A stretch of 36,312 bases of DNA, taken from a virus. The notes below the pieces were generated by a model, which was not told where the DNA came from, did not search any database, and saw only the letters and a list, made by a program, of their open reading frames with translations. Shown in pieces: positions 4,279 through 35,399 of this stretch. Each line of letters opens with the position of its first letter. Position 1 is the stretch's first letter. The translations under genes were made by a program, and so were the position numbers. Where the stretch lies: IMG/VR virus record IMGVR_UViG_3300020172_000443, positions 1 through 36,312 of that record; one strand, written 5' to 3'.

Positions 4279-4850
4279 CGAACGTCAAGGGTGGGGAACG
4301 CTGCGAGTGCTTCTGTTACTGCTTGTGGCAGGGTGTCGCCGGCGACATAGCGGATGTGCCATGCTTCTGCGTTAGCTCCGTCACGGACTTCCCAACTGAA
4401 ACCAAACTTGAGAGCGTTGCTTGTTAAGAATCCGTCACCGAGCAACCATTCAAGTCGCTTACCTGATGCTGAGGCGACATCGATTGCGAGTCCGATGCCA
4501 TGATTGCTAGTCCCAGGCGAGCCTGCCGGTGCGACACCCTTCTTCAAATACCAAGTCTTACCCTGATAAGTACGGGTCACTTGTGGAGTGCGACCTGTCG
4601 GGGCGGCCTCGTAGCGGGCGTTGAACAACTTGATTTGTTCGGGTAACGGGCGGTATGCGCCAACATGCTTCAATTCGATCCCGTCGAAGTATGCGGCGAG
4701 TTGCATGGCGTTCCATGCGGTTGCTGCTAGGCGGTGCAGTTTGCCTCCTGGGGCTTTGATGTCTCGTAGGAGGGCGGGGTTGATTTCGCCGTTCTTTTGT
4801 CCTGCGAGATCGGAGGGCATGATGATGGGTAGTACGGTGTATGTGGTCAT
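4275..4850 (-). CDS. M15 D-Ala-D-Ala carboxypeptidase/endopeptidase (endolysin)
   Basis: A 191-aa VanY/M15-type zinc peptidase that cuts D-Ala-containing bonds in peptidoglycan stem peptides. Zinc ligands are visible as SNHGIGLAIDV (H117, D124) and EAWH (H165, catalytic E162). RP at 67-68 lies in the usual conserved YRP region. I chose the ATG at 4848-4850, preceded by AGAAAGAAAAA and 10 bp from the previous stop; an upstream in-frame ATG would overlap the fibre gene by over 40 bp. No signal peptide is present, so release would depend on a holin. It heads the lysis cassette and is the likely endolysin. Confidence 0.85.
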   Translation of the reverse strand: MTTYTVLPIIMPSDLAGQKNGEINPALLRDIKAPGGKLHRLAATAWNAMQLAAYFDGIELKHVGAYRPLPEQIKLFNARYEAAPTGRTPQVTRTYQGKTWYLKKGVAPAGSPGTSNHGIGLAIDVASASGKRLEWLLGDGFLTSNALKFGFSWEVRDGANAEAWHIRYVAGDTLPQAVTEALAAFPTLDVR

Positions 4851-4860
4851 TTTTTTCTTT

Positions 4861-5862
4861 CTAGTTGTAAACCAATGTGATAAGACCGGAGAAATCTCTT
4901 GCACCTAACAAGAAACCTGGTTGTGCATCATGGTCGTACATTCCGATACCTTGAGCAGTGCCATCTTGTAATGCGTTGATCGCTGTGTAATCTAGTGAAA
5001 CATAAGCAGATGCGCTGTTACCGCTTAAAGCAACAGTTAATGGGTTGCCACTAAATGTGGCCGCACCTGAAGCACTACTTAAATTGTGTGTCTTGAGATA
5101 GAACGTTCCTGAGTTACCACGGTTCGTATCACCAGCAGCAGCACGTTTAACAAAGATTGTGCCACTGTCTGCGTTCCATCCTCGACATGCTGTCTTGATT
5201 GTGTCAGCTCCGTAGAACCAGCAACCGTATGCTCGTGATGATGTGGAGTAGCCGACAATACCTTCTGTGGTTGTGCCAAGCCATGCGCTATTTGCGAGGT
5301 TGCGTGAATCTGCGGCAGTGTTAACAAAACTGTATGTGCCGTATGGTCGAGTATTAATAAATGCAGAATATTGGCCAGTGGTTGAACCGTCAGTGCTGTT
5401 GCCTGCATTGTCGGTAGCAACAAGATAATAGTAAACCTGGTAATGGTTACCTGTTGGCGTATTTCTATACGATGTTGAAATAGCCATAGAAGTAGAACCG
5501 CTACTTGTAGGCGTAGGAATCGAATAAGTATTGCCGGCGATATAACTGTTTGTAGTTACGTTGTAGAAATACTGGTACAACGTTGCTGAAGCAACACCAG
5601 ACCCAGCATCGGTAATAGCAGACCAAGAAACGGTATCTGCTGTACCACCTGAAGTAACACTTGGGGTGTTAAGAGTTGGGCCAGTGTTGTCATATTGATA
5701 AACTTGCTGCCAAGTACCAGACACATTGGCATACATGTTAGTAGCACCCTGCCAAGTACCAGACACATTGGCATACGGTCTATCCGTACCAGTAAGTTCT
5801 TGCCATGTTCCAGAAACGTTTACATACGTGGGCATATCAGTATTTGAACCAAATGTCGCCAT
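4861..5862 (-). CDS. Tail fibre protein with YxNVSGTWQ repeats
   Basis: A 333-aa protein starting at the ATG 5860-5862 behind GGTGGAG, overlapping the upstream fibre gene by 26 bp. The N-terminus has three YxNVSGTWQ repeats (about residues 12-50), a motif frequent in phage fibres where it probably anchors or trimerises. A fibronectin-like stretch follows (GPTLNTPSVTSGG...VSWSAITDAGSGVASATLYQY), then a C-terminal domain (about 190-333) rich in Gly, Ser and aromatic residues. It is the last of the tail genes before the peptidase. Receptor binding is inferred from the layout. Confidence 0.7.
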   Translation of the reverse strand: MATFGSNTDMPTYVNVSGTWQELTGTDRPYANVSGTWQGATNMYANVSGTWQQVYQYDNTGPTLNTPSVTSGGTADTVSWSAITDAGSGVASATLYQYFYNVTTNSYIAGNTYSIPTPTSSGSTSMAISTSYRNTPTGNHYQVYYYLVATDNAGNSTDGSTTGQYSAFINTRPYGTYSFVNTAADSRNLANSAWLGTTTEGIVGYSTSSRAYGCWFYGADTIKTACRGWNADSGTIFVKRAAAGDTNRGNSGTFYLKTHNLSSASGAATFSGNPLTVALSGNSASAYVSLDYTAINALQDGTAQGIGMYDHDAQPGFLLGARDFSGLITLVYN

Positions 5863-22700: not shown

Positions 22701-24471
22701 GCAAGCGCGCTTCGCCTTTATCCATTACATCAAAAGTACCTTTTTGGCCAGTAATCCACCCAAATTCGCTGACAATACGACGAACACGCCTAGCATCCGG
22801 AAGAATTAAAGAATTACGCATAATTTCTGAACGTATTGCGGCGGTTGCTAATGGAAGATCAACCATTGTTCCATCAGGTTGAAACATTGTGACACCAAAA
22901 TTATTTGGTTCATTAAAATCATTCAAAGTTGCATACAAAGGACTGTCTTTAATTTTTGCTAATCCTTCAAGCATTGAGTCAACTAATTTTTTATCTGCAC
23001 CAGAAGCTCGCAAAGATGTTCTCAAAATTTTGTTTAACTTTTCAGACGCAACACGAAGATCACCAGGAGAATTATTGTATGCGTTCAAAAATTCTTTTAA
23101 TAAATCATCTCTTTCTGTTGCACTAACTCTTGCTCGACGCATATACGAATCAATAGCAAACATAGAGTTAGCTGCATCACGATCAGAATATAAAGAAACA
23201 ACAACTTCGTTACCAAAGTTTTTAGCACCCAAACTTGAATAAACTTTACTTAACCAATTGTTACCTTGTGTCGCACGATATTTCATATTAGACCAGCTGG
23301 TCATATTAAAATCGTTCATTGAACGAGGAGCTTTACCGAGCGCAGGATTACCCTCACCTATTGCTTCGGCAAGAAACTTACGCATATCTGTAACATCATC
23401 AATGTTGACAATGTTTTCCCAAAATTTTCCGTTGGCGTTAGGGAACATGTGCATTGCTTGTGTAACAGTTGTTACATCTTCTGCTAAAACTCTGACAACT
23501 TTTTGTCCAGTGTTAGTGTCTAGCCATTGACCAATTTTTGCTGGGACAATTGCGGCTGATTCAAAATCTGTTAATCCACGGAATACTTTTAATCCACCAA
23601 GTTCTTCAAGTGCTGTAACACCTTTAGTAGCAAGTTTGAGGCCAGGAAGTGCCGGAACTTTCATAGCAACATAACCGTCAATTGTTCCTGACAAAATATT
23701 TTCTGCCATTTGTTTAAGACCAACTTCAACACCAAGATCATCTGCTTGTGGTTGAAATAGATTTTGTGTCAACAATCTTCCGATAGTAAAAGCGTGACCG
23801 TCAATTGTGCCTCGATATCTGCGCGCACGTTCAGCTTGCATTTCATAGGCTTTGCCGCCCATAAACCAGCCTGATCCTGTATCTTCCCAGTTTGCAATCA
23901 TTGAACCCGCACTGGTTGATATAAACCATCCGTCATTAAATGCTGCTTGATTTTCGACACCATTTATTGCATTAATACCTGGTAACCCGCCAGCTTGTGC
24001 AGCAGCATTTTGAACAAGATCGGTAGTCGTTTGTAAACCTGCGTTCACCCAACGTGAAGCACCTTTAATCGCAGGGTAAATATATTGAAACCATGCTTTG
24101 TAAGTTTCTGGAGCATTTCTTTCAACAAAACCTGGTTCACCTGGCCCTGGTGGGCCTTGCGTTTTACCGTATTCTCCTGCTGTTGGGCCACGATTTGTTG
24201 AATAATCAATAGCACCAATATCATAACGAATAGAATCCTTAGCTAACCGTTGTGCTTCCTCAACACTAAAAGCACCAGCAGCAGCACCACGAGCAGCAGC
24301 TTCCAACACACCAATATTTGCTGCCGGATATTGACGATACAAGTCACCAACGATCTGTGCTAACGCTGGAGTTGCTTGCGCTCGATACGAAAAGATACGT
24401 TGATCTTCGGCTGCCATATCCGACAAAATTTGTGCTTCTTCTTGCGCTGTATACCTTTGGTACAAGGACAT
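19777..24471 (-). CDS. Giant internal/ejection virion protein, 1564 aa
   Basis: The ATG at 24469-24471 overlaps the preceding stop as TGATG; the TTG just before it is not needed. It is the largest gene here and mostly helical, with many charged segments. A Gly/Ala-rich hydrophobic stretch lies at about residues 1113-1154 (AGYGGAVVGGILFG, then GGGLGGLGVGGIA), which could insert into a membrane. Long virion proteins of this size, encoded beside portal and scaffold, form the internal core or channel of podoviruses (T7 gp16 and N4 vRNAP are examples of size class only). I see no transglycosylase or polymerase motif. Confidence 0.65.
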   Translation of the reverse strand: MSLYQRYTAQEEAQILSDMAAEDQRIFSYRAQATPALAQIVGDLYRQYPAANIGVLEAAARGAAAGAFSVEEAQRLAKDSIRYDIGAIDYSTNRGPTAGEYGKTQGPPGPGEPGFVERNAPETYKAWFQYIYPAIKGASRWVNAGLQTTTDLVQNAAAQAGGLPGINAINGVENQAAFNDGWFISTSAGSMIANWEDTGSGWFMGGKAYEMQAERARRYRGTIDGHAFTIGRLLTQNLFQPQADDLGVEVGLKQMAENILSGTIDGYVAMKVPALPGLKLATKGVTALEELGGLKVFRGLTDFESAAIVPAKIGQWLDTNTGQKVVRVLAEDVTTVTQAMHMFPNANGKFWENIVNIDDVTDMRKFLAEAIGEGNPALGKAPRSMNDFNMTSWSNMKYRATQGNNWLSKVYSSLGAKNFGNEVVVSLYSDRDAANSMFAIDSYMRRARVSATERDDLLKEFLNAYNNSPGDLRVASEKLNKILRTSLRASGADKKLVDSMLEGLAKIKDSPLYATLNDFNEPNNFGVTMFQPDGTMVDLPLATAAIRSEIMRNSLILPDARRVRRIVSEFGWITGQKGTFDVMDKGEARLPLVAVEYLQNQVWRPFTLLTGGYVLRNLTDSTLRHVLAADLNRGVFHPLEFMQIAMFKKMGGDIEGVTFDDAQDVILRTQKEYAQAINAQMRENFDPLLRAKQERQTGAWRAVNASYGDDFIQGVADETHLLANDEIARMIAAGDDTEDILIWLETTDAGKQHMRDLQGMWRDVWQKDLNGQQATVTIDFHVEGQGMTIQQQDNWVRYIDEYLRPRLDETVGKDIILRNIIGRRVNGEIVSGTLTDAAGNILKDANGNIVTAFKQTKNGAFIGFTDEYFDEIRRVVDTPNNGLKKEFKARVHMKPGHLRGNAPDMTSEQRQIMNAKNQVVRRFFSELYPKREAWLNRSPAFRKFYYNSINNYLHLLAPGEAENIVRAVQQSAKDANVVYDTKFLKKWVGSDELAQRILDMASGKIKSTGQRTHTEISALAKGYALDATEELFYNAAAKSDFADIFRIITPFGSAWAEVMKSWTKILATNPENLAKVEKSVMALQEGDPDGDGKGFFWKDPQSGEYMFNYPFSKQLGPFIAGYGGAVVGGILFGAKGAIGGGLGGLGVGGIAQKIIGPDINPVFSAPAKSLNMGLQILPGFGPVVQLASSWIIPNIPKTDFIRHFVTPYGAPEVSSLALPSWSSKLIDALSDPKQTRLLGDLQMDVMKTLAATRDSEGNLKYDLTDPRDRQRLENDAIPKARVLLVLRSLGQFVGPSRPDVDFSLETNSGDVYASEVSKAWNDMRAENYDTAVETFVNTFGEDFFLYMQGKTQTDLYGLEASKNFGRWERENEGFFGRHKQVAGFFADVGSDFDYQVYLRQLELGYRERIPADELVSMAQEVVGKALYRNAVRKVGPKSTPEQKAWLYEQKLAIQELYPGYATAEASFNDFERQLIYLKEASSDSAMDGNPVAEATRFYLEQRDAAIQFSIDRGSGTGRSLSGKNDGDLRDSLNTIGLALIEKYPEFARVWDQVFFNEVDPGKEG

Positions 24472-30706: not shown

Positions 30707-30786
30707 GAACATATGTTCGGGGTACAGGTGTTCGGGGAACAAATGTTCGGTCGACGGGGGAACAAATGTTCGGGGAACGTATGTTC
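30707..30786. repeat. Phased GAAC-N4-GTTC palindrome array (LexA-box-like)
   Basis: Palindromes lie at 30707-30718 (GAACATATGTTC), 30722-30733 (GTACAGGTGTTC, one mismatch), 30737-30748, 30760-30771 (both GAACAAATGTTC) and 30775-30786 (GAACGTATGTTC). Centres are 15, 15, 23 and 15 bp apart. The first is CGAAC-N4-GTTCG, the core of the actinobacterial LexA box. Host LexA, a phage repressor or an initiator could bind. Confidence 0.75.
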
Positions 30787-30896: not shown

Positions 30897-30945
30897 TGTG
30901 TGTGTGTGTGTGTGTGTTTCGGTTGGTTGGTTGGGGGTTGGTTGG
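30897..30945 (+). repeat. TG dinucleotide tract and G-rich tract
   Basis: Ten TG units (30897-30916) are followed after four bases by six GG-containing runs separated mostly by TT (30921-30945). The second tract could form a two-tetrad G-quadruplex. Both lie just upstream of the operon promoter. Confidence 0.7.
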
Positions 30946-30949
30946 TAGT

Positions 30950-30963
30950 GTGTCGAATGTCAC
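30950..30963. promoter_or_regulatory. Candidate operator GTGTC-N4-GTCAC
   Basis: GTGTC-GAAT-GTCAC lies 11 bp upstream of the -35. Related sites GTGAC-N4-GTCAC (33181-33194) and GTGAC-N4-GTCAT (33238-33251) precede the second promoter. A further GTCAC-AAT-GACAC repeat at 31012-31024 overlaps the expected transcription start. Confidence 0.5.
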
Positions 30964-30974
30964 ACGATTAGGGG

Positions 30975-31004
30975 TTGACATTCTTTTAGGGTTGGGGGTA
31001 GTGT
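30975..31004 (+). promoter_or_regulatory. Promoter P1 of the small-gene operon
   Basis: TTGACA (30975-30980) and TAGTGT (30999-31004) are 18 bp apart. The sequence from -35 to -10 is shared with P2 (TTGACATTC, then GGTTGGGG-TAGTGTT), which supports it as a functional unit. Confidence 0.7.
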
Positions 31005-31046
31005 TCTAAATGTCACAATGACACACTGAGAGATTGGGAGATAGCA

Positions 31047-31229
31047 ATGAATGTTTACGGCCTACGGGTTAGCTTCGATGAATGGGTGGGTAGTCAGGGT
31101 GACCTGTCGAATGATGATCACGTGAATGTCGGTCAATGGGTCAAGTACATGAATGTCAAGTATTCGCAAGCGTTCGAAGATTTCGCCGACTGGTCGATCG
31201 ATGATCTGGTTGCTCTAGTTTGTGAGTGA
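31047..31229 (+). CDS. Operon gene 1, 60-aa unknown protein
   Basis: First gene after P1. The protein is acidic and aromatic: MNVYGLRVSFDEWVGS, then VNVGQWVKYMNVKYSQAFEDFADW and a short acidic end. No domain is recognised. The leader GAGATTGGGAGATAGCA before the ATG is the ancestral-looking form of the leader carried by the other genes. Its stop lies six bases before the first tRNA-like module. Confidence 0.65.
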   Translation: MNVYGLRVSFDEWVGSQGDLSNDDHVNVGQWVKYMNVKYSQAFEDFADWSIDDLVALVCE

Positions 31230-31235
31230 GTGTTA

Positions 31236-31303
31236 GCCGTAACCCGTTCGGGGGTTTAGTCGGTTCAATTCCGACTACGGCACTACCCGCTAATAGTGGC
31301 GGG
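31236..31303 (+). ncRNA. tRNA-like module 1 (TLM1) and hairpin
   Basis: P1 GCCGTA (31236-31241) pairs with TACGGC (31276-31281). P2 is a CCC/GGG hairpin. P3 is a T-arm, GTCGG-TTCAATT-CCGAC (31259-31275), with the T-loop consensus TTCRANN. ACTA follows at 31282-31285, then P4 CCCGC/GCGGG (31286-31303). There is no D-arm or anticodon arm, so it is not a tRNA gene. Confidence 0.8.
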
Positions 31304-31327
31304 TGAATGAGAGAATGAGAGACAGCT

Positions 31328-31519
31328 ATGGAAACATATAAGGGTATGCGGGTAGTGAACGGGGTTATAGTGTGCGAATGTTGCGATATCAACCCCGTGG
31401 CCGTTTGTGCGCATTTAGGCGATAATGTCACCTTTTATTTGTGCGTAGAGTGTGACAGGTATTCACGGGGTATCGAATTAGAGCGTCGATGCGCAGAGTT
31501 TGTTTGCCCTTGCGGGTGA
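31328..31519 (+). CDS. Operon gene 2, Cys-rich small protein, 63 aa
   Basis: Nine cysteines in 63 residues: CECC near 16-19, VCAH near 26-29, LCVEC near 38-42 and then C54, with FVCPCG at the end. Spacing fits one or two zinc sites. The start GAGAGACAGCTATG follows the common leader. It lies between modules 1 and 2. A small nucleic-acid-binding or adaptor protein is likely, but the family is unknown. Confidence 0.65.
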   Translation: METYKGMRVVNGVIVCECCDINPVAVCAHLGDNVTFYLCVECDRYSRGIELERRCAEFVCPCG

Positions 31520-31525
31520 GTGTTG

Positions 31526-31592
31526 GCCGTAGCCCTGCGGGGTTGATCAGGTTCGTAACCTGACTACGGCACTACTTACCAATTCTGGTGAG
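31526..31592 (+). ncRNA. tRNA-like module 2 (TLM2) and hairpin
   Basis: P1 GCCGTAG (31526-31532) pairs with CTACGGC (31564-31570), a full 7 bp. P2 is CCC-TGC-GGG. P3 TCAGG-TTCGTAA-CCTGA (31547-31563) has a T at the usual A58 position. ACTA follows at 31571-31574, then P4 CTTACC/GGTGAG (31575-31592) with loop AATTCT. Confidence 0.8.
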
Positions 31593-31615
31593 TAAATAGA
31601 GAATGGGAGATAGAC

Positions 31616-31843
31616 ATGAATAAAATACGGGAGATAGTCGGCCTTACCGAAGAACTAATAGCGGGCGAGACCTATTGGGTACAGTGGTCACGTGAGAGTA
31701 TCACGGGCGAATATGTCATAGTCGAACATGTCAGCCGTAAGGGTATCGCTACCGTAAAGGCTACCCATGATGGCATTATTTCGGGCGGTAGTCGCCATGA
31801 TGTCAGGGTGGCAAATTACGTTTGGTATACCGATCTAATGTAA
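31616..31843 (+). CDS. Operon gene 3, 75-aa unknown protein
   Basis: A small beta-rich protein: LIAGETYWVQWSRESITGEYVIVEHVSRKGIATVKA (about 14-49), which resembles an SH3-like or Tudor-type barrel in strand spacing only, then VRVANYVWYTDLM. Starts in the common leader (GGGAGATAGACATG) and ends seven bases before module 3. Function unknown. Confidence 0.65.
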   Translation: MNKIREIVGLTEELIAGETYWVQWSRESITGEYVIVEHVSRKGIATVKATHDGIISGGSRHDVRVANYVWYTDLM

Positions 31844-31850
31844 TTTGGTG

Positions 31851-31919
31851 GCCGTGACCCGTTCGGGGGTTTACTAGGTTCGATTCCTAGAACGGCACTA
31901 TCTGTCAATTCGGGCAGAT
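31851..31919 (+). ncRNA. tRNA-like module 3 (TLM3) and hairpin
   Basis: P1 GCCGT (31851-31855) pairs with ACGGC (31892-31896). P3 CTAGG-TTCGATT-CCTAG (31874-31890) is a canonical T-arm. The segment from P2 to P3 is nearly identical to module 1. ACTA follows at 31897-31900, then P4 ATCTGTC/GGCAGAT (31900-31919) with loop AATTCG. Confidence 0.8.
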
Positions 31920-31942
31920 TATTTAAAGAATGGGAGACAGCT

Positions 31943-32287
31943 ATGAGAACAGACTACGAATATGGGCTAGGAAATTTTGATCTATCGCATGAAGCGACAG
32001 AACTAGTTTTATATGCGCAAAATGATCAGGGGAACTATAAGGCCTATATCGTTCCTATGTTGCGGGCGTGTCAGAAACACTATGACAGGGGACAGGGTGA
32101 CTATGAACGGGTATTAAAAGGGTTCACCCGCCAATTCTTGCCTATCGCCAGAAACTATGTTTTAGAACATTGCGGAATGACCGACAGTGTTCGTTCACTG
32201 TTCCCGCTATCTGTTCGGCGTGAGTGTGCCGAATACATGGCCGAATATTTCCTAGATGAGTACCGCTTGAATGGTGGGGGTTGGTAG
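31943..32287 (+). CDS. Operon gene 4, 114-aa conserved phage-type protein
   Basis: Helical protein: YIVPMLRACQKHYDRGQGDYERVLKGFTRQFLPIARNYVLEHCG, then LFPLSVRRECAEYMAEYFLDEYRLNGG. The same layout (Y...L..N...K...G.YD...A...., then a helix with FP...R...A..F...F..EYR.G) occurs in many unnamed small early proteins of diverse phages. Likely cytoplasmic. It is the longest gene of the first half of the operon. Confidence 0.7.
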   Translation: MRTDYEYGLGNFDLSHEATELVLYAQNDQGNYKAYIVPMLRACQKHYDRGQGDYERVLKGFTRQFLPIARNYVLEHCGMTDSVRSLFPLSVRRECAEYMAEYFLDEYRLNGGGW

Positions 32288-32300
32288 TAGTTGAAATATG

Positions 32301-32365
32301 CCCTAGCCGTTTAGCGGTAGGCCTGTCGTAAGGTCACTAGGGACTACTCACCTATTCGGGGTGAG
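32301..32365 (+). ncRNA. Variant module 4 (TLM4) and hairpin
   Basis: P1 CCCTAG (32301-32306) pairs with CTAGGG (32337-32342). P2 is CCG-TTTAG-CGG. P3 GGCCT/AGGTC (32320-32335) has a six-base loop GTCGTA instead of a T-loop. ACTA follows at 32343-32346, then P4 CTCACC/GGTGAG (32347-32365). The overall three-way junction is kept, but the T-arm is not. Confidence 0.75.
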
Positions 32366-32381
32366 AGAATGAGAGACAGCT

Positions 32382-32591
32382 ATGGAAACATACGGCAAGT
32401 ATAAAGTGACAGTTATGGTTACGGTAGACCTTGAAGCATTGAACCCTGACGTGGCATACCGTGACGCTATCGACGTAGTAAATGACGCTCTAGAAGAATC
32501 GGGCATGATGGATCAGGGTTTACGGGTGACGGGTATCGCCCAAAATAGTCAGGGTGAGGATATGGTTTACTGTTACGGGGTGGCCGAATGA
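32382..32591 (+). CDS. Operon gene 5, 69-aa unknown protein
   Basis: Alternating strand-helix-strand pattern: YKVTVMVTVDLEAL, then DVAYRDAIDVVNDALEESG and LRVTGIAQNSQGE, a ferredoxin-like or dodecin-like spacing. Starts METYG with the common leader GAGAGACAGCTATG; gene 2 also starts METY. Its stop overlaps the start of gene 6 as ATGA, and no module lies between the two. Confidence 0.65.
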   Translation: METYGKYKVTVMVTVDLEALNPDVAYRDAIDVVNDALEESGMMDQGLRVTGIAQNSQGEDMVYCYGVAE

Positions 32592-32719
32592 ATAGTGCCG
32601 AATGTTCGCTAGAACTAGTCAAGTGTGAACGGGTGACCGAATGGCCTAGCGGGTGGCTAATTGTAGCTATCTTAGCGGGGGTAGTTGTTGCGGGTTGGGC
32701 GTTCTACCGTTCTAGGTAG
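32588..32719 (+). CDS. Operon gene 6, 43-aa single-TM protein
   Basis: A very short gene coupled to gene 5 by ATGA. The N-terminus is charged (ECSLELVKCERVTEW), followed by a membrane segment (WLIVAILAGVVVAGWAFY, about 23-40) and the basic end RSR, so an N-out topology is expected. Small early phage membrane proteins often affect host physiology or superinfection. No family recognised. Confidence 0.65.
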   Translation: MNSAECSLELVKCERVTEWPSGWLIVAILAGVVVAGWAFYRSR

Positions 32720-32731
32720 CGTTCGATCTTG

Positions 32732-32796
32732 CCCTAGCCCGTCAGGGGTAGCCCGTCATAGGGCAACTAGGGACTATCTCACCAATTCCGGTGAGA
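32732..32796 (+). ncRNA. Variant module 5 (TLM5) and hairpin
   Basis: P1 CCCTAG (32732-32737) pairs with CTAGGG (32767-32772). P2 is CCC-GTCA-GGG. P3 GCCC/GGGC (32751-32764) has loop GTCATA, close to the GTCGTA loop of module 4. ACTA follows at 32773-32776, then P4 TCTCACC/GGTGAGA (32777-32796) with loop AATTCC. Confidence 0.75.
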
Positions 32797-32822
32797 TTAT
32801 TTAGAGAATGAGAGATAGCTAT

Positions 32823-33008
32823 ATGAGTGATGTTAGAAAAGTGACCAACCAACTAATCGATCTGGTCGATGATGGCGTTCTATCGTGGGAGATTGTCGCT
32901 ATGGCGTGTCTCTCATATATGTCAGAAGATCACGTGGCAGATATGGCCAGTGATAACTATTTGATCGAAGATAGCGAAGATAGCGAAGATAGCGAAGATA
33001 GCGAATGA
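32823..33008 (+). CDS. Operon gene 7, 61-aa acidic protein
   Basis: I start it at the ATG 32823 that follows GAGAGATAGCTAT; an ATG at 32808 lies inside the common leader and is not used in the other genes. A helical body (VRKVTNQLIDLVDDGVLSWEIVAMACLSYMSEDHVADM) is common in small phage proteins. The end is four EDS repeats (DNA GAAGATAGC x4 at 32967-33002) and then E, perhaps a length-variable acidic tail. ATGA overlap with gene 8. Confidence 0.65.
   Translation: MSDVRKVTNQLIDLVDDGVLSWEIVAMACLSYMSEDHVADMASDNYLIEDSEDSEDSEDSE
32967..33002 (+). repeat. Four tandem GAAGATAGC units
   Basis: A perfect 9-bp repeat coding for EDS x4 at the end of gene 7. It may vary in copy number by replication slippage. 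Confidence 0.9.
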
Positions 33009-33184
33009 ATGGTCGGCGTTATGTTGAATATAGTGACGGGGTGACTATGACGGTAGGCCACGAAACTATCGAACTATCGTTCGTGACCGATAGCGGGTGG
33101 CGGGTTCGCCAACGTTACTCAGGGTATACCCGCCGACAGTGTGTAGCTATGTTTCGTGAACACTTGCGCACACTTGATAGGTGA
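33005..33184 (+). CDS. Operon gene 8, 59-aa unknown protein
   Basis: Coupled to gene 7 through ATGA. The protein is MNGRRYVEYSDGVTMTVGHET, then IELSFVTDSGWRVRQRYSGYTRRQCVAMFREHLRTL. It looks like a three-strand sheet followed by a basic amphipathic helix, and could bind nucleic acid. Its stop lies within the operator cluster of promoter P2 (GTGAC at 33181). No homologous family recognised. Confidence 0.6.
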   Translation: MNGRRYVEYSDGVTMTVGHETIELSFVTDSGWRVRQRYSGYTRRQCVAMFREHLRTLDR

Positions 33185-33251
33185 CCTATGTCACGAACAT
33201 ATGTTCTAGCGGGTGCTATTTGGCCTGCTAGAACAGTGTGACGTATGTCAT
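33181..33251. promoter_or_regulatory. Operator cluster upstream of P2
   Basis: In order: GTGAC-CTAT-GTCAC (33181-33194), the perfect GAACATATGTTC palindrome (33195-33206), a 12-bp stem (33202-33213 with 33223-33234, one G-U) and GTGAC-GTAT-GTCAT (33238-33251). The hairpin starts inside the GAAC palindrome. There is no U-tract, so it is a weak terminator candidate at best. Confidence 0.6.
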
Positions 33252-33252
33252 A

Positions 33253-33281
33253 TTGACATTCTGGTTTGGTTGGGGTAGTGT
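33253..33281 (+). promoter_or_regulatory. Promoter P2, second promoter of the operon
   Basis: TTGACA (33253-33258) and TAGTGT (33276-33281) are 17 bp apart. The element repeats P1 almost word for word, with an upstream GTGAC-type operator in both. Confidence 0.7.
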
Positions 33282-33330
33282 TTTATCTGTCAAGCGTTCA
33301 AGCTTGCCAATGAGAGAATGAGAGATAGCT

Positions 33331-33528
33331 ATGAAATACGGTAAACATAACCCGTACCCTGTAGGGCTAGCGGGTTTACTAAATGGTAATACGGCTACCC
33401 ATAGGCGAGAGACTAAGGCCGAACGGGAACGTCAGGCTAGCTGTAAGTGTGATCACGAACGGCAAATAGAGTGTGGGCATTGTATTGCGGGTCACGCCGA
33501 ACTAATGGCCGAATACGATAACGAATAA
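33331..33528 (+). CDS. Operon gene 9, Cys/His-containing protein, 65 aa
   Basis: First gene after P2. The N-terminus is MKYGKHNPYPVGLAGLLNGN. A basic helix (RRETKAERERQA) leads into CKCDHERQIECGHCIAGH, a compact set of Cys and His (C38, C40, H42, C48, H50, C51, H55) that can bind zinc. Starts in the common leader GAGAGATAGCTATG. Probably a small zinc-finger protein; partner unknown. Confidence 0.65.
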   Translation: MKYGKHNPYPVGLAGLLNGNTATHRRETKAERERQASCKCDHERQIECGHCIAGHAELMAEYDNE

Positions 33529-33537
33529 AGCTAGTTA

Positions 33538-33606
33538 GCCGTGACCTATCGGGGGTACTTGCGGGTTCGATACCCGCCACGGCACTACTCACCTAATGGG
33601 GGTGAG
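33538..33606 (+). ncRNA. tRNA-like module 6 (TLM6) and hairpin
   Basis: P1 GCCGTG (33538-33543) pairs with CACGGC (33578-33583). P3 GCGGG-TTCGATA-CCCGC (33561-33577) is a perfect T-arm stacked directly on P1. P2 is weak (ACC/GGT). ACTA follows at 33584-33587, then P4 CTCACC/GGTGAG (33588-33606). Confidence 0.8.
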
Positions 33607-33631
33607 TAAATAGAGAATGGGATATAGCACT

Positions 33632-34261
33632 ATGACGGCAATTGATAATGTTCAAGGGTTCACTAGTAACCCTGACGGGGTGGGTAATAACTATCTCGCT
33701 AAAATTATGGTGGCTAGCGGTAAATTGGCTAGTCCGGATATCACCCGTGGCACTATTTCTAGTGTCAAGGTTCAAGCGTTCGGGGATACCGTGACGTTTA
33801 CGGGGTGCGATAGTTACCGCCTAATCGAAATTACGGTAGATATGCCGAACGTTGGCGAATGGTTAGCCTTACCGAACGGTAGGGAATTAGCTAAAGCTAG
33901 TTCGTTCGTTAAAGGTCAGACTACGGCTACGTTTATTCTGGCCGATAGCCAGCTAGTTATTTCTAGCGGTAAGGGTAGCGTGAATGTTCAAGGGTTGAAC
34001 CCTTACGGGCATGCCGAATATCCGAACGTTGCCCGTCTATTCACGTGGGGTAATGACGCTAGCGGGTGGCCTGAGAATACCGTGAACTACAACGGGGATT
34101 TATTGGGCGAGACTATTAGTCTCATGGCCGATATTGTTGATTATGGCGGTAAGGGTTCGGCGGGTGGCCGTGTCACTATTGAACGTTTAGTGCCTCGTGC
34201 CATTATTACGGCAGAACGTCAGGGTATTAAGGTTCGGGCTACCCTTATGCCGTTAAAGTAA
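33632..34261 (+). CDS. Sliding-clamp-like protein (DnaN-like, short)
   Basis: The start is ATG 33632; the ATG at 33617 is in the shared leader. The 209-aa protein has features of bacterial beta clamps: LASPDITRGTISSVKVQAFG, then VTFTGCDSYRLIEITVDMP (clamp: ATDxxRLA), then LPNGRELAKASSFVKG and VNVQGLNPYGHAEYPNVARLF (clamp: ...YPDY). This covers about two of the three clamp domains (normal length about 370 aa). It may be a reduced phage processivity factor or may have lost clamp function. Identification is from pattern only. Confidence 0.5.
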   Translation: MTAIDNVQGFTSNPDGVGNNYLAKIMVASGKLASPDITRGTISSVKVQAFGDTVTFTGCDSYRLIEITVDMPNVGEWLALPNGRELAKASSFVKGQTTATFILADSQLVISSGKGSVNVQGLNPYGHAEYPNVARLFTWGNDASGWPENTVNYNGDLLGETISLMADIVDYGGKGSAGGRVTIERLVPRAIITAERQGIKVRATLMPLK

Positions 34262-34271
34262 TTCCGGTTAC

Positions 34272-34335
34272 GCCTAGCCCGTGGGGGTTCTCTAGGTTCA
34301 ATTCCTAGCTAGGCACTACCGCTAATTCTGGCGGT
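34272..34335 (+). ncRNA. tRNA-like module 7 (TLM7) and hairpin
   Basis: P1 GCCTAG (34272-34277) pairs with CTAGGC (34309-34314). P2 is CCC-GTG-GGG. P3 CTAGG-TTCAATT-CCTAG (34292-34308) is a canonical T-arm stacked on P1. ACTA follows at 34315-34318, then P4 ACCGC/GCGGT (34318-34335) with loop TAATTCTG. Confidence 0.8.
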
Positions 34336-34356
34336 AATAATGAATGGGAGATAGTT

Positions 34357-34767
34357 ATGAGATATTTAGTTGATAGGGGTACGGGTACTATTTTGGGGGT
34401 CAATGATGATCTAGTCATTGTTGATATCGACGATAACGACGATATAGATGAGAATGGTATCCTTGAATTGGCAGATAAGGCTAAATGGTTCAATAAGGCC
34501 ATTATCGGTACACATTATGAACTACCGCTAATTCTTACTGATAGGGCTATTTCTAGTGAATTGAATGATTACGTTTACAATAGTGAAATTAGTGCCGATA
34601 ATGATGACAACTATTTCTATTGTCTAAGTAATCCGGATACGTGGCCACTAATCCGTGACGCTGTTATCGAAGATAACGCTTTATGGAATGAGTACACTGA
34701 TACGTGGTCTAACGCTATCCTTACTGTAGCTAGTGACCATCGTTACCGTAACGGGGTGGCAGAATGA
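34357..34767 (+). CDS. Operon gene 11, acidic protein, 136 aa
   Basis: Strongly acidic, with an Asp/Asn-rich run at about 22-34 (VDIDDNDDIDENG) and another (ISADNDDNYFY). The first residues (MRYLVDRGTGTILGVNDDLVIVD) form a likely beta-hairpin. It could be a DNA-mimic or an inhibitor, as other acidic early proteins are, but nothing specific shows this. Starts in the common leader; ATGA overlap with gene 12. Confidence 0.65.
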   Translation: MRYLVDRGTGTILGVNDDLVIVDIDDNDDIDENGILELADKAKWFNKAIIGTHYELPLILTDRAISSELNDYVYNSEISADNDDNYFYCLSNPDTWPLIRDAVIEDNALWNEYTDTWSNAILTVASDHRYRNGVAE

Positions 34768-35399
34768 GAGAAATAATTTTCGAGTACCCGCTAAATGACA
34801 CTATTCAATGCCCTGTCGGGATTGACGCTAATGACCCGCACACGTTCGAACAGGGTACAGGCCGTTTAGCGTTCTACGACATTATGGGCAAGGCCGGCCA
34901 CTATCACGAGGTATGTCTAGAGTGTGCGCACCCTATGAATGAACCCGTAGTTGATGGGGGTTTAGAACTAGCACCTGATCTGGCTATCTATTCGGTACGG
35001 GTAGACGGTATCGACTATCACGATCACGCTCTCACGGCACGTCAGGCTATGGATATAGCTTACCAATGGGAATTACACGGTAGCGATGACGTAGCTATCG
35101 ACCTATTTTACGGTAGCGGTACTTTAGAACTACCGCCAGAATATAAGGTAGCTATCCTTAATTGGGCGACTAGTCAAACTAACGCTCTCACACTTGCCGA
35201 ATATGGTGATGACTATTGGAATGTATGGCGTAGTCCGAACGGGTTACATCGTTACGATATCAACATTCATAGCCATCGTGAACCGAATACGGCACGTATC
35301 GTTGCCCATTCAATGTACACCGAGTTAGGTGACGTGACTATGACCGATTACGATAACTATTGTTTTATCGGTATTGTCGATATCTCTCATATGCGATAA
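34764..35399 (+). CDS. Operon gene 12, 211-aa unknown protein
   Basis: A neutral to acidic soluble protein. The N-terminal third has CPVGIDANDPHTFEQG and GHYHEVCLECAHPMNE (Cys and His that may bind zinc). The middle includes LTARQAMDIAYQWELHGSDDVAIDLFYGSG. The end is strand-rich (DVTMTDYDNYCFIGIVDI). Translationally coupled to gene 11, with no module between. No family recognised. Confidence 0.6.
   Translation: MREIIFEYPLNDTIQCPVGIDANDPHTFEQGTGRLAFYDIMGKAGHYHEVCLECAHPMNEPVVDGGLELAPDLAIYSVRVDGIDYHDHALTARQAMDIAYQWELHGSDDVAIDLFYGSGTLELPPEYKVAILNWATSQTNALTLAEYGDDYWNVWRSPNGLHRYDINIHSHREPNTARIVAHSMYTELGDVTMTDYDNYCFIGIVDISHMR

Follow-up and report, generated by a model that had tools for sequence, protein, structure and literature searches.

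Seven intergenic gaps in an operon of small early genes carry structured RNA modules that resemble a reduced transfer RNA (tRNA). The operon lies in the IMG/VR virus record IMGVR_UViG_3300020172_000443 (36,312 b; this whole stretch is called the window) and spans 31047..35399 on the plus strand. From the structure and position of the modules and the known contacts of the enzymes, it is probable that they are cis-acting tRNA mimics cut by host ribonuclease P (RNase P), perhaps with RNase Z, a form of "tRNA punctuation". The original prediction had placed modules at 31236, 31526, 31851, 32301, 32732, 33538, and 34272, and all seven were confirmed. Each folds far better than its dinucleotide shuffles (z −2.75 to −4.27, with 0–5 of 200 shuffles equally good), and the pattern of a T-arm followed by ACTA has four exact occurrences against 0.03 expected. 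Chance folding was ruled out, and the modules are real, strand-specific structured RNAs.

Five of the modules (31236, 31526, 31851, 33538, and 34272) consist of a 5–6 base pair (bp) acceptor-like stem (P1), a small hairpin, and a T-arm, followed on the 3' side by ACTA, a second hairpin (P4), a purine-rich ribosome-binding region, and ATG. Their likeness to the top half of a tRNA is well supported: they combine an acceptor stem and a T-arm with a small D region, either hairpin or loop, in which GG is usually present. Module 1 (31236..31285; E 2.5e-12 with covariance model R2, the window T-arm type) has P1 GCCGT(A), a D-like hairpin ACCC-GTTCGG-GGGT, the T-arm GTCGG-TTCAATT-CCGAC, and ACTA, and its P4 lies directly 3' of it (31284..31305). 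Module 2 (31526..31574; R2 E 2.3e-6; P4 at 31573..31594) has the deviating T-loop TTCGTAA, which lacks A58 and may instead lengthen its stem. Modules 3 (31851..31900; R2 E 1.4e-12; P4 at 31901..31918), 6 (33538..33587; R2 E 6.6e-12; P4 at 33586..33608), and 7 (34272..34318; R2 E 1.4e-10; P4 at 34317..34336) are also of the T-arm type, and module 7 is matched by the B-type model R3 as well (E 5e-4). The predicted P1 and P3 stems were correct except for P1 of module 3, in which five of six positions are paired (GCCGT-G/A-ACGGC). Modules 4 and 5 represent a second type, the B type, with a GUCRUA loop. Module 4 (32301..32346; R3 E 2e-15; P4 at 32344..32367) is composed of P1 CCCTAG/CTAGGG, P2 CCG-TTTAG-CGG, P3 with the loop GUCGUA, and ACTA, and module 5 (32732..32776; R3 E 1.9e-16; P4 at 32776..32797) has P3 GCCC-GUCAUA-GGGC. 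All of these elements are on the plus strand, and every P4 was located by folding. A T-stem with a UUCRANN loop joined directly to the 3' strand of the acceptor is complete in modules 1, 3, 6, and 7, differs by one loop change in module 2, and is absent from modules 4 and 5.

Covariance models, proposed as a check in the original prediction, were built for the D-loop type (R1), the window T-arm type (R2), and the B type (R3) and searched. Since R1 found nothing beyond the T-arm in the window modules, the window type was modeled separately. R2 recovered five of the seven modules and R3 the other two, and neither detected a further convincing copy in the 36-kb window. No tRNA gene was found in the window by ARAGORN or by Rfam at gathering score; the modules have no anticodon arm, and ARAGORN calls none of the mini forms, which excludes ordinary tRNA genes. 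No Rfam family reached the gathering score for the modules. Permissive Rfam hits in the window were attributed to chance or to antisense Plastid-ycf2, itself tRNA-like on the other strand. The mascRNA-menRNA family (RF01684) was not found in the window, and for one Streptomyces-phage locus it was the best near-match in Rfam, below the cut-off (21.3 bits, E 1.8; cut-off 42.5).

Covariation, position, and spread of the modules

Because no DNA-level homologues of the window were found among named phages, relatives were sought by pattern. The terminase of the window phage is distant from those of named phages (best about 25%). A pattern of the T-arm end and GGCACTA matched 68 viral contigs, many of which carry the same design in unrelated phages. 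A descriptor search gave 36 copies that had not been selected by the GGCACTA pattern, with 11 nucleotides (nt) from T-loop to tail, compared with about 1.8 in shuffled sequence. Pair counts on set A2 are partly circular, as the descriptor demanded pairing, and were not used as proof. A second pattern, limited to the D-loop and the 5' strand of the T-arm, matched at least 120 further stretches. Since P1 and the tail were not selected in this hit set, it provided the decisive covariation test. It was revealed that 138 of 144 unique hits have all five P1 pairs exactly 11 nt past the T-loop, whereas other lengths gave 0–6. Pair 4 of P1 varies freely among these hits (TA 61, CG 45, AT 18, GC 14), and G1-C72 is present in 128 of the 144, or in 104 of 118 when one is taken per record. 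For the window type, 23 sequences gave a covariation score of 0.70 versus 0.17 in shuffles. Covariation in homologues, the lack of which the original prediction had named as a refutation, is strong.

The tail is conserved in a more general form than predicted. R73-C74 follows P1 in about 96% of the unselected hits (n = 144), with the tails ACT (64), ACG (32), ACA (14), GCT (13), GCG (6), and GCA (3) versus ACC (5) and GCC (1). The "invariant ACTA" of the window modules is one local variant of the general pattern R-C-(not C)-N. Instead of the D-hairpin, most phages have an 11-nt D-loop such as ACTGGCAGACA. The D-loop GG is invariant in set A2, partly because the search pattern and the descriptor asked for or favored GG, and it is present in 28 modules with a longer D region, where it is often expected by chance. 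A hairpin downstream of the tail, with its first paired base 0–6 nt past R73 and at least 5 bp, was found in 318 of 359 modules versus 261 of 359 shuffled sequences, which is a modest excess; its mean energy is −11.7 versus −8.8 in the shuffled set.

The B type, represented by modules 4 and 5 and by copies in about 20 other contigs, keeps the same ruler, since 15 nt separate the C of its loop from the downstream R73, just as they do in the T-arm and D-loop types; the B-type copies of contigs L200 and L208 have a P1 longer by one pair, which brings 14 to 15 nt. A near relative, L008, encodes a clamp 86% identical to that of the window and has five modules in gaps of the same kind. The gene at 31943 and its orthologue (L008 6588, 76% identity) are preceded by a T-arm module in the window and by a B-type module in L008; therefore, the two types can replace each other. 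The R2 search recovered D-type and B-type copies outside its seed, and by this cross-detection between models the window, D-loop, and B types appear to be linked. At 5854–5924 of L016 (also in L021, L052, and L054), ARAGORN calls a "tRNA-???", which forms an almost complete cloverleaf with six nt in the anticodon loop. It ends in GGCACTA, sits before a start codon, and may link true tRNA genes with the mini form. Mycobacterium abscessus prophages have a larger tRNA-like element before a gene (L018, about 4600–4700; also L015, L017, L025, L026, L044, and L067), with P1 GCCACG/CGTGGC, an extra arm, and ACTA, and L026 additionally carries two standard mini modules in tandem.

The position of the modules relative to genes was evaluated for 292 modules. 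A stop codon lies within 25 nt upstream in 76% (12% in the control), with a peak at 6–8 nt, and a start codon lies 20–70 nt downstream in 89% (50% in the control), with a median of 40 nt. Both are found for 69% of modules versus 7% of control sites. In Send513 and Lika, all 20 modules are oriented with the genes and 18 are in gaps between annotated genes; the two others overlap the annotated 5' ends of Send513 genes 56 and 79, the starts of which are possibly mis-called. A single 44-nt consensus gave 859 matches in 150 phage records, with Streptomyces (113 records), Mycobacterium (24), and Gordonia (6) as host genera. Named carriers include the Streptomyces phages Lika, Sujidade, phiCAM, and phiHau3 and the Mycobacterium phages Send513, Papyrus, and Predator. 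No annotated feature underlies the listed consensus matches in named phages, and the weakest few matches, three Streptococcus records among them, probably reflect the T-arm of ordinary tRNA. Scans of whole records gave up to 15 copies per record. Modules are also present in M. abscessus prophages, and the D-loop pattern detected 24 stretches from Actinomycetota and Bacteroidota, either in prophages or in host contigs, six or seven of which have no stem and are due to chance. A first scan of prokaryote genomes with the narrow pattern gave no match, nor did 72,556 plasmid records. In a Corynebacterium prophage (L229, 4800–4880), a single module lies in the structural operon and is followed by a terminator-like hairpin and T run (CCCCTACAC-GGAAG-GTGTGGGGG-TTTTC).

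Possible cleavage by host tRNA-processing enzymes

In the proposed mechanism, every gene would be followed, a few nt past its stop codon, by an anticodon-less tRNA mimic whose elbow and acceptor stem would be recognized by host RNase P. This enzyme would cut the polycistronic RNA at the boundary of N-1 and G1, directly 5' of P1, and the downstream message may then be freed by RNase Z, by a second cut in the region of R73-C74, or by both. In most actinophage copies, this message would then carry a short 5' hairpin, a ribosome-binding site, and a start codon. One phage transcript would be converted into single-gene messages, and the benefit may be stabilization by the 5' hairpin and the uncoupling of genes. 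Structure, covariation, fixed geometry, position, and spread were read directly from the sequences, whereas we infer the cleavage, the enzymes, and the benefit.

Cleavage by RNase P is favored because the conserved set of G19/C56 elbow, G1-C72, unpaired N-1, and R73-C74 corresponds to the contacts of RNase P with pre-tRNA. RNase P binds the T-loop with G19-C56 stacking, places A248 on G1/C72 near N-1, and pairs G292-G293-U294 of its RNA with residues 73-74-75; hairpins of acceptor and T-arm are cut at the correct site (PMC11143913). The identity of N-1 influences the efficiency and the site of cleavage (PMC12710915), and in mascRNA and menRNA two D-loop guanosines form the elbow required by both RNase P and RNase Z (PMC11693755). 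The contact set of T-loop/elbow, G1-C72, single-stranded N-1, and R73-C74 is present in most module copies, with the exception of C75. N-1 is unpaired and is A in 96 of the 144 unselected hits, and the anticodon arm, which is dispensable for RNase P, is gone from the modules. The tRNA top half predicted for five window copies is well supported by the P1 covariation in 138 of 144 hits, the GG of the D region, the TTCRA loop, G1-C72, and R73-C74. Cleavage is also favored by the placement of the modules between stop and start codons, by their lack at window genes that have a promoter-like element or overlap the gene before, and by the sub-threshold similarity of one Streptomyces-phage locus to mascRNA-menRNA, a mimic cut by RNase P and RNase Z (PMC11693755).

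Several observations weigh against this reading. Between T-loop and discriminator, the stacked helix measures 11 bp, as compared with the conserved 12-bp stack that RNase P measures on tRNA (PMC11143913), and the modules have no 12-bp acceptor and T stack with a CCA end. In tRNA, C75 forms a pair with RNase P RNA, and the modules avoid this residue (6 of 144 unselected hits, and 4 of 118 with one module per record, though C makes up 31% of the flank). The B type is without the canonical T-loop and GG, and the module copies of L072, an AT-rich contig, have no hairpin after the tail. With respect to RNase Z, the modules avoid CCA but keep C74 and have a helix of 11 bp. In favor of a 3' cut, RNase Z is blocked by a complete CCA, so that the scarcity of C75 is in line with such a cut.

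It is conceivable but unlikely that the tRNA-shaped elements act uncut, insulating cistrons, blocking the sliding of ribosomes after termination, or shielding RNA from exonucleases. The stop spacing of 6–8 nt would place them near the edge of a terminating ribosome, the folds are stable, and the B type retains place and geometry in spite of its loops. However, insulation requires stability only, which leaves unexplained why G1-C72, R73-C74, UUCRA, and GG are conserved amid free stem variation and why C75 is avoided. We consider it rather improbable that the modules bind a phage or host regulatory protein other than RNase P/Z, as a translational operator, an antitermination site, or a site for a tRNA-modifying enzyme acting as chaperone. 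The repeated, operator-like placement before start codons would suit such a protein, and so would the T-arm loops, which are recognition elements of the TruB/TrmA type too. Nevertheless, the modules occur in unrelated phages of two phyla with no common phage gene identified, none of 20 records with modules encodes Ro60/TROVE, and the two loop types swap before an orthologous gene.

A structure 6–8 nt past a stop codon is also the usual geometry of readthrough or frameshift signals. A role of the modules as such stimulators is very improbable, as TGA (96), TAG (43), and TAA (36) all serve as stops and, of 175 frames followed past the stop, 58 close within the module and only 73 stay open for at least 30 codons. 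Decayed tRNA genes or passively spreading, functionless repeats would account for the similarity of the T-arm DNA to real phage tRNA genes and for the copies that are nearly full cloverleaves (L016, L018), but the perfect covarying stems with fixed geometry in 138 of 144 hits refute this origin. The strict orientation and position and the lack of any match in the plasmid records also speak against it, so that hardly any weight is left for it.

Whether the cleavage reading extends to the whole class is, in our estimate, evenly balanced. It would mean that an undescribed large class of viral RNA exists, in which phages of at least two bacterial phyla use anticodon-less mini-tRNAs in most gaps of their early operons, that host RNase P (with RNase Z) cuts the messages to unit length, and that the 11-bp ruler and the anti-CCA tail prevent the by-products from entering the tRNA pool. 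If this is true, many sequenced and easily grown phages carry an unnoticed RNA-processing system, a bacterial-virus counterpart of mitochondrial tRNA punctuation, which would explain unit-length messages from dense phage operons. The arrays would represent natural minimal RNase P substrates whose free stem variation reveals what the enzyme reads, would supply synthetic operons with small, portable cutting sites, and would bear on how tRNA gives rise to tRNA-like modules or is formed by their decay. Even with another enzyme, a covarying RNA class in about 140 named phage records that is not in Rfam is new.

Promoter-like elements and neighboring features

Modules are missing in the window operon exactly at genes that have their own promoter-like element (31047 and 33331) or that overlap the preceding gene (32588, 33005, and 34764). 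The promoter-like element, TTGACATTCT-N-GGTAGTGTT, forms a near-identical pair with only two copies in the window versus 0 expected. The first copy (30975..31005, plus strand) precedes the first gene at 31047 and the second (33253..33282, plus strand) precedes the gene at 33331. They are termed promoters by repetition and position only, because a generic sigma-70 scan lists neither site (30975, 33253). A sliding-clamp-like gene (33617–34261, plus strand; phrog_947) has module 6 upstream.

GAAC-N4-GTTC palindromes occur seven times in the window versus 0.6 expected, four of them at 30707–30786, ahead of the first promoter-like element, and one at 33195–33206, ahead of the second; none was found in the relative L008. 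They resemble LexA/SOS boxes or phage-repressor operators, and if they are such sites, the module operon would be under damage or lysogeny control. Immediately before the first promoter-like element lies a (GT)n run with TTGG repeats (30905–30960), and a comparable GT-rich stretch is present in L008 at about 5830–5860. In addition, a GOLLD RNA (RF02032, 180 bits) was found at 23206–23666 of L077, corresponding to 51205–51665 of Send513 (JF704112), in a 1.16-kb gap between genes 68 and 69.

Comparison with known systems

Spacers of tRNA shape that are excised from a polycistron, as in mitochondria, and RNase P-cut mimics, as in MALAT1, are already known, whereas the modules appear to be undescribed as a class of phage RNA. 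We found no description of them in the open-access literature searched. The statement in the original prediction that no phage system of this kind had been described agrees with this result and with the absence of an Rfam family and of annotation.

In mitochondrial polycistronic RNA, tRNA genes punctuate the protein genes, and their excision releases the messenger RNAs. The phage modules share the placement of tRNA-shaped spacers between protein genes, the excision of which would release messages; however, mitochondria use real tRNA genes, while the phage spacers, being devoid of an anticodon arm, are unable to decode. The early genes of T7 have RNase III sites between them, so that a host endonuclease splits an early polycistronic transcript there too, but these sites are long double-stranded hairpins for another enzyme.

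Repeated intergenic elements directly upstream of actinophage start codons, of unknown function, have been described as SAS/ESAS in Cluster K and EF phages (PMC3203893, PMC7302621) and as 17-bp repeats in Cluster O (PMC4351075). In contrast to the modules, these are short repeats conserved at the DNA level, and their descriptions give no acceptor stem, T-arm, or tRNA-like fold. SAS/ESAS is defined as a 13-bp GGGATAGGAGCCC-like motif at the start codon (PMC3203893), and no such motif was seen in the window sequence. Natural phage substrates of host RNase P are the phi80 M3 RNA, the C4 antisense RNA of P1/P7, and the T4 gene 32 messenger RNA (PMC11143913). The modules are presumed here to be host RNase P substrates likewise, but those are single RNAs and not a device repeated through the gaps of an operon.

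The Y RNA YrlA of bacteria and phages likewise mimics tRNA and has no anticodon arm (Chen et al. 2014, cited in PMC7790460). YrlA adjoins Ro60/Rsr and acts in trans, whereas the phage modules form arrays before start codons. TROVE (PF05731) was absent from 20 module-bearing records, with a positive control, which rules out an identity of the modules with YrlA/Ro60. The mascRNA and menRNA of MALAT1 and MEN-beta (RF01684), which are cut by RNase P and RNase Z (PMC11693755), share with the modules a tRNA mimic that has no usable anticodon, lies within a long transcript, and builds its elbow from two D-loop guanosines and the T-loop. They are eukaryotic, occur once per long non-coding RNA, serve 3'-end formation, receive CCA, and have a long third arm. 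The phage modules, which score below the cut-off of this family, form arrays between the protein genes of DNA phages and are compact RNAs of 40–50 nt with an 11-bp stack and no third arm.

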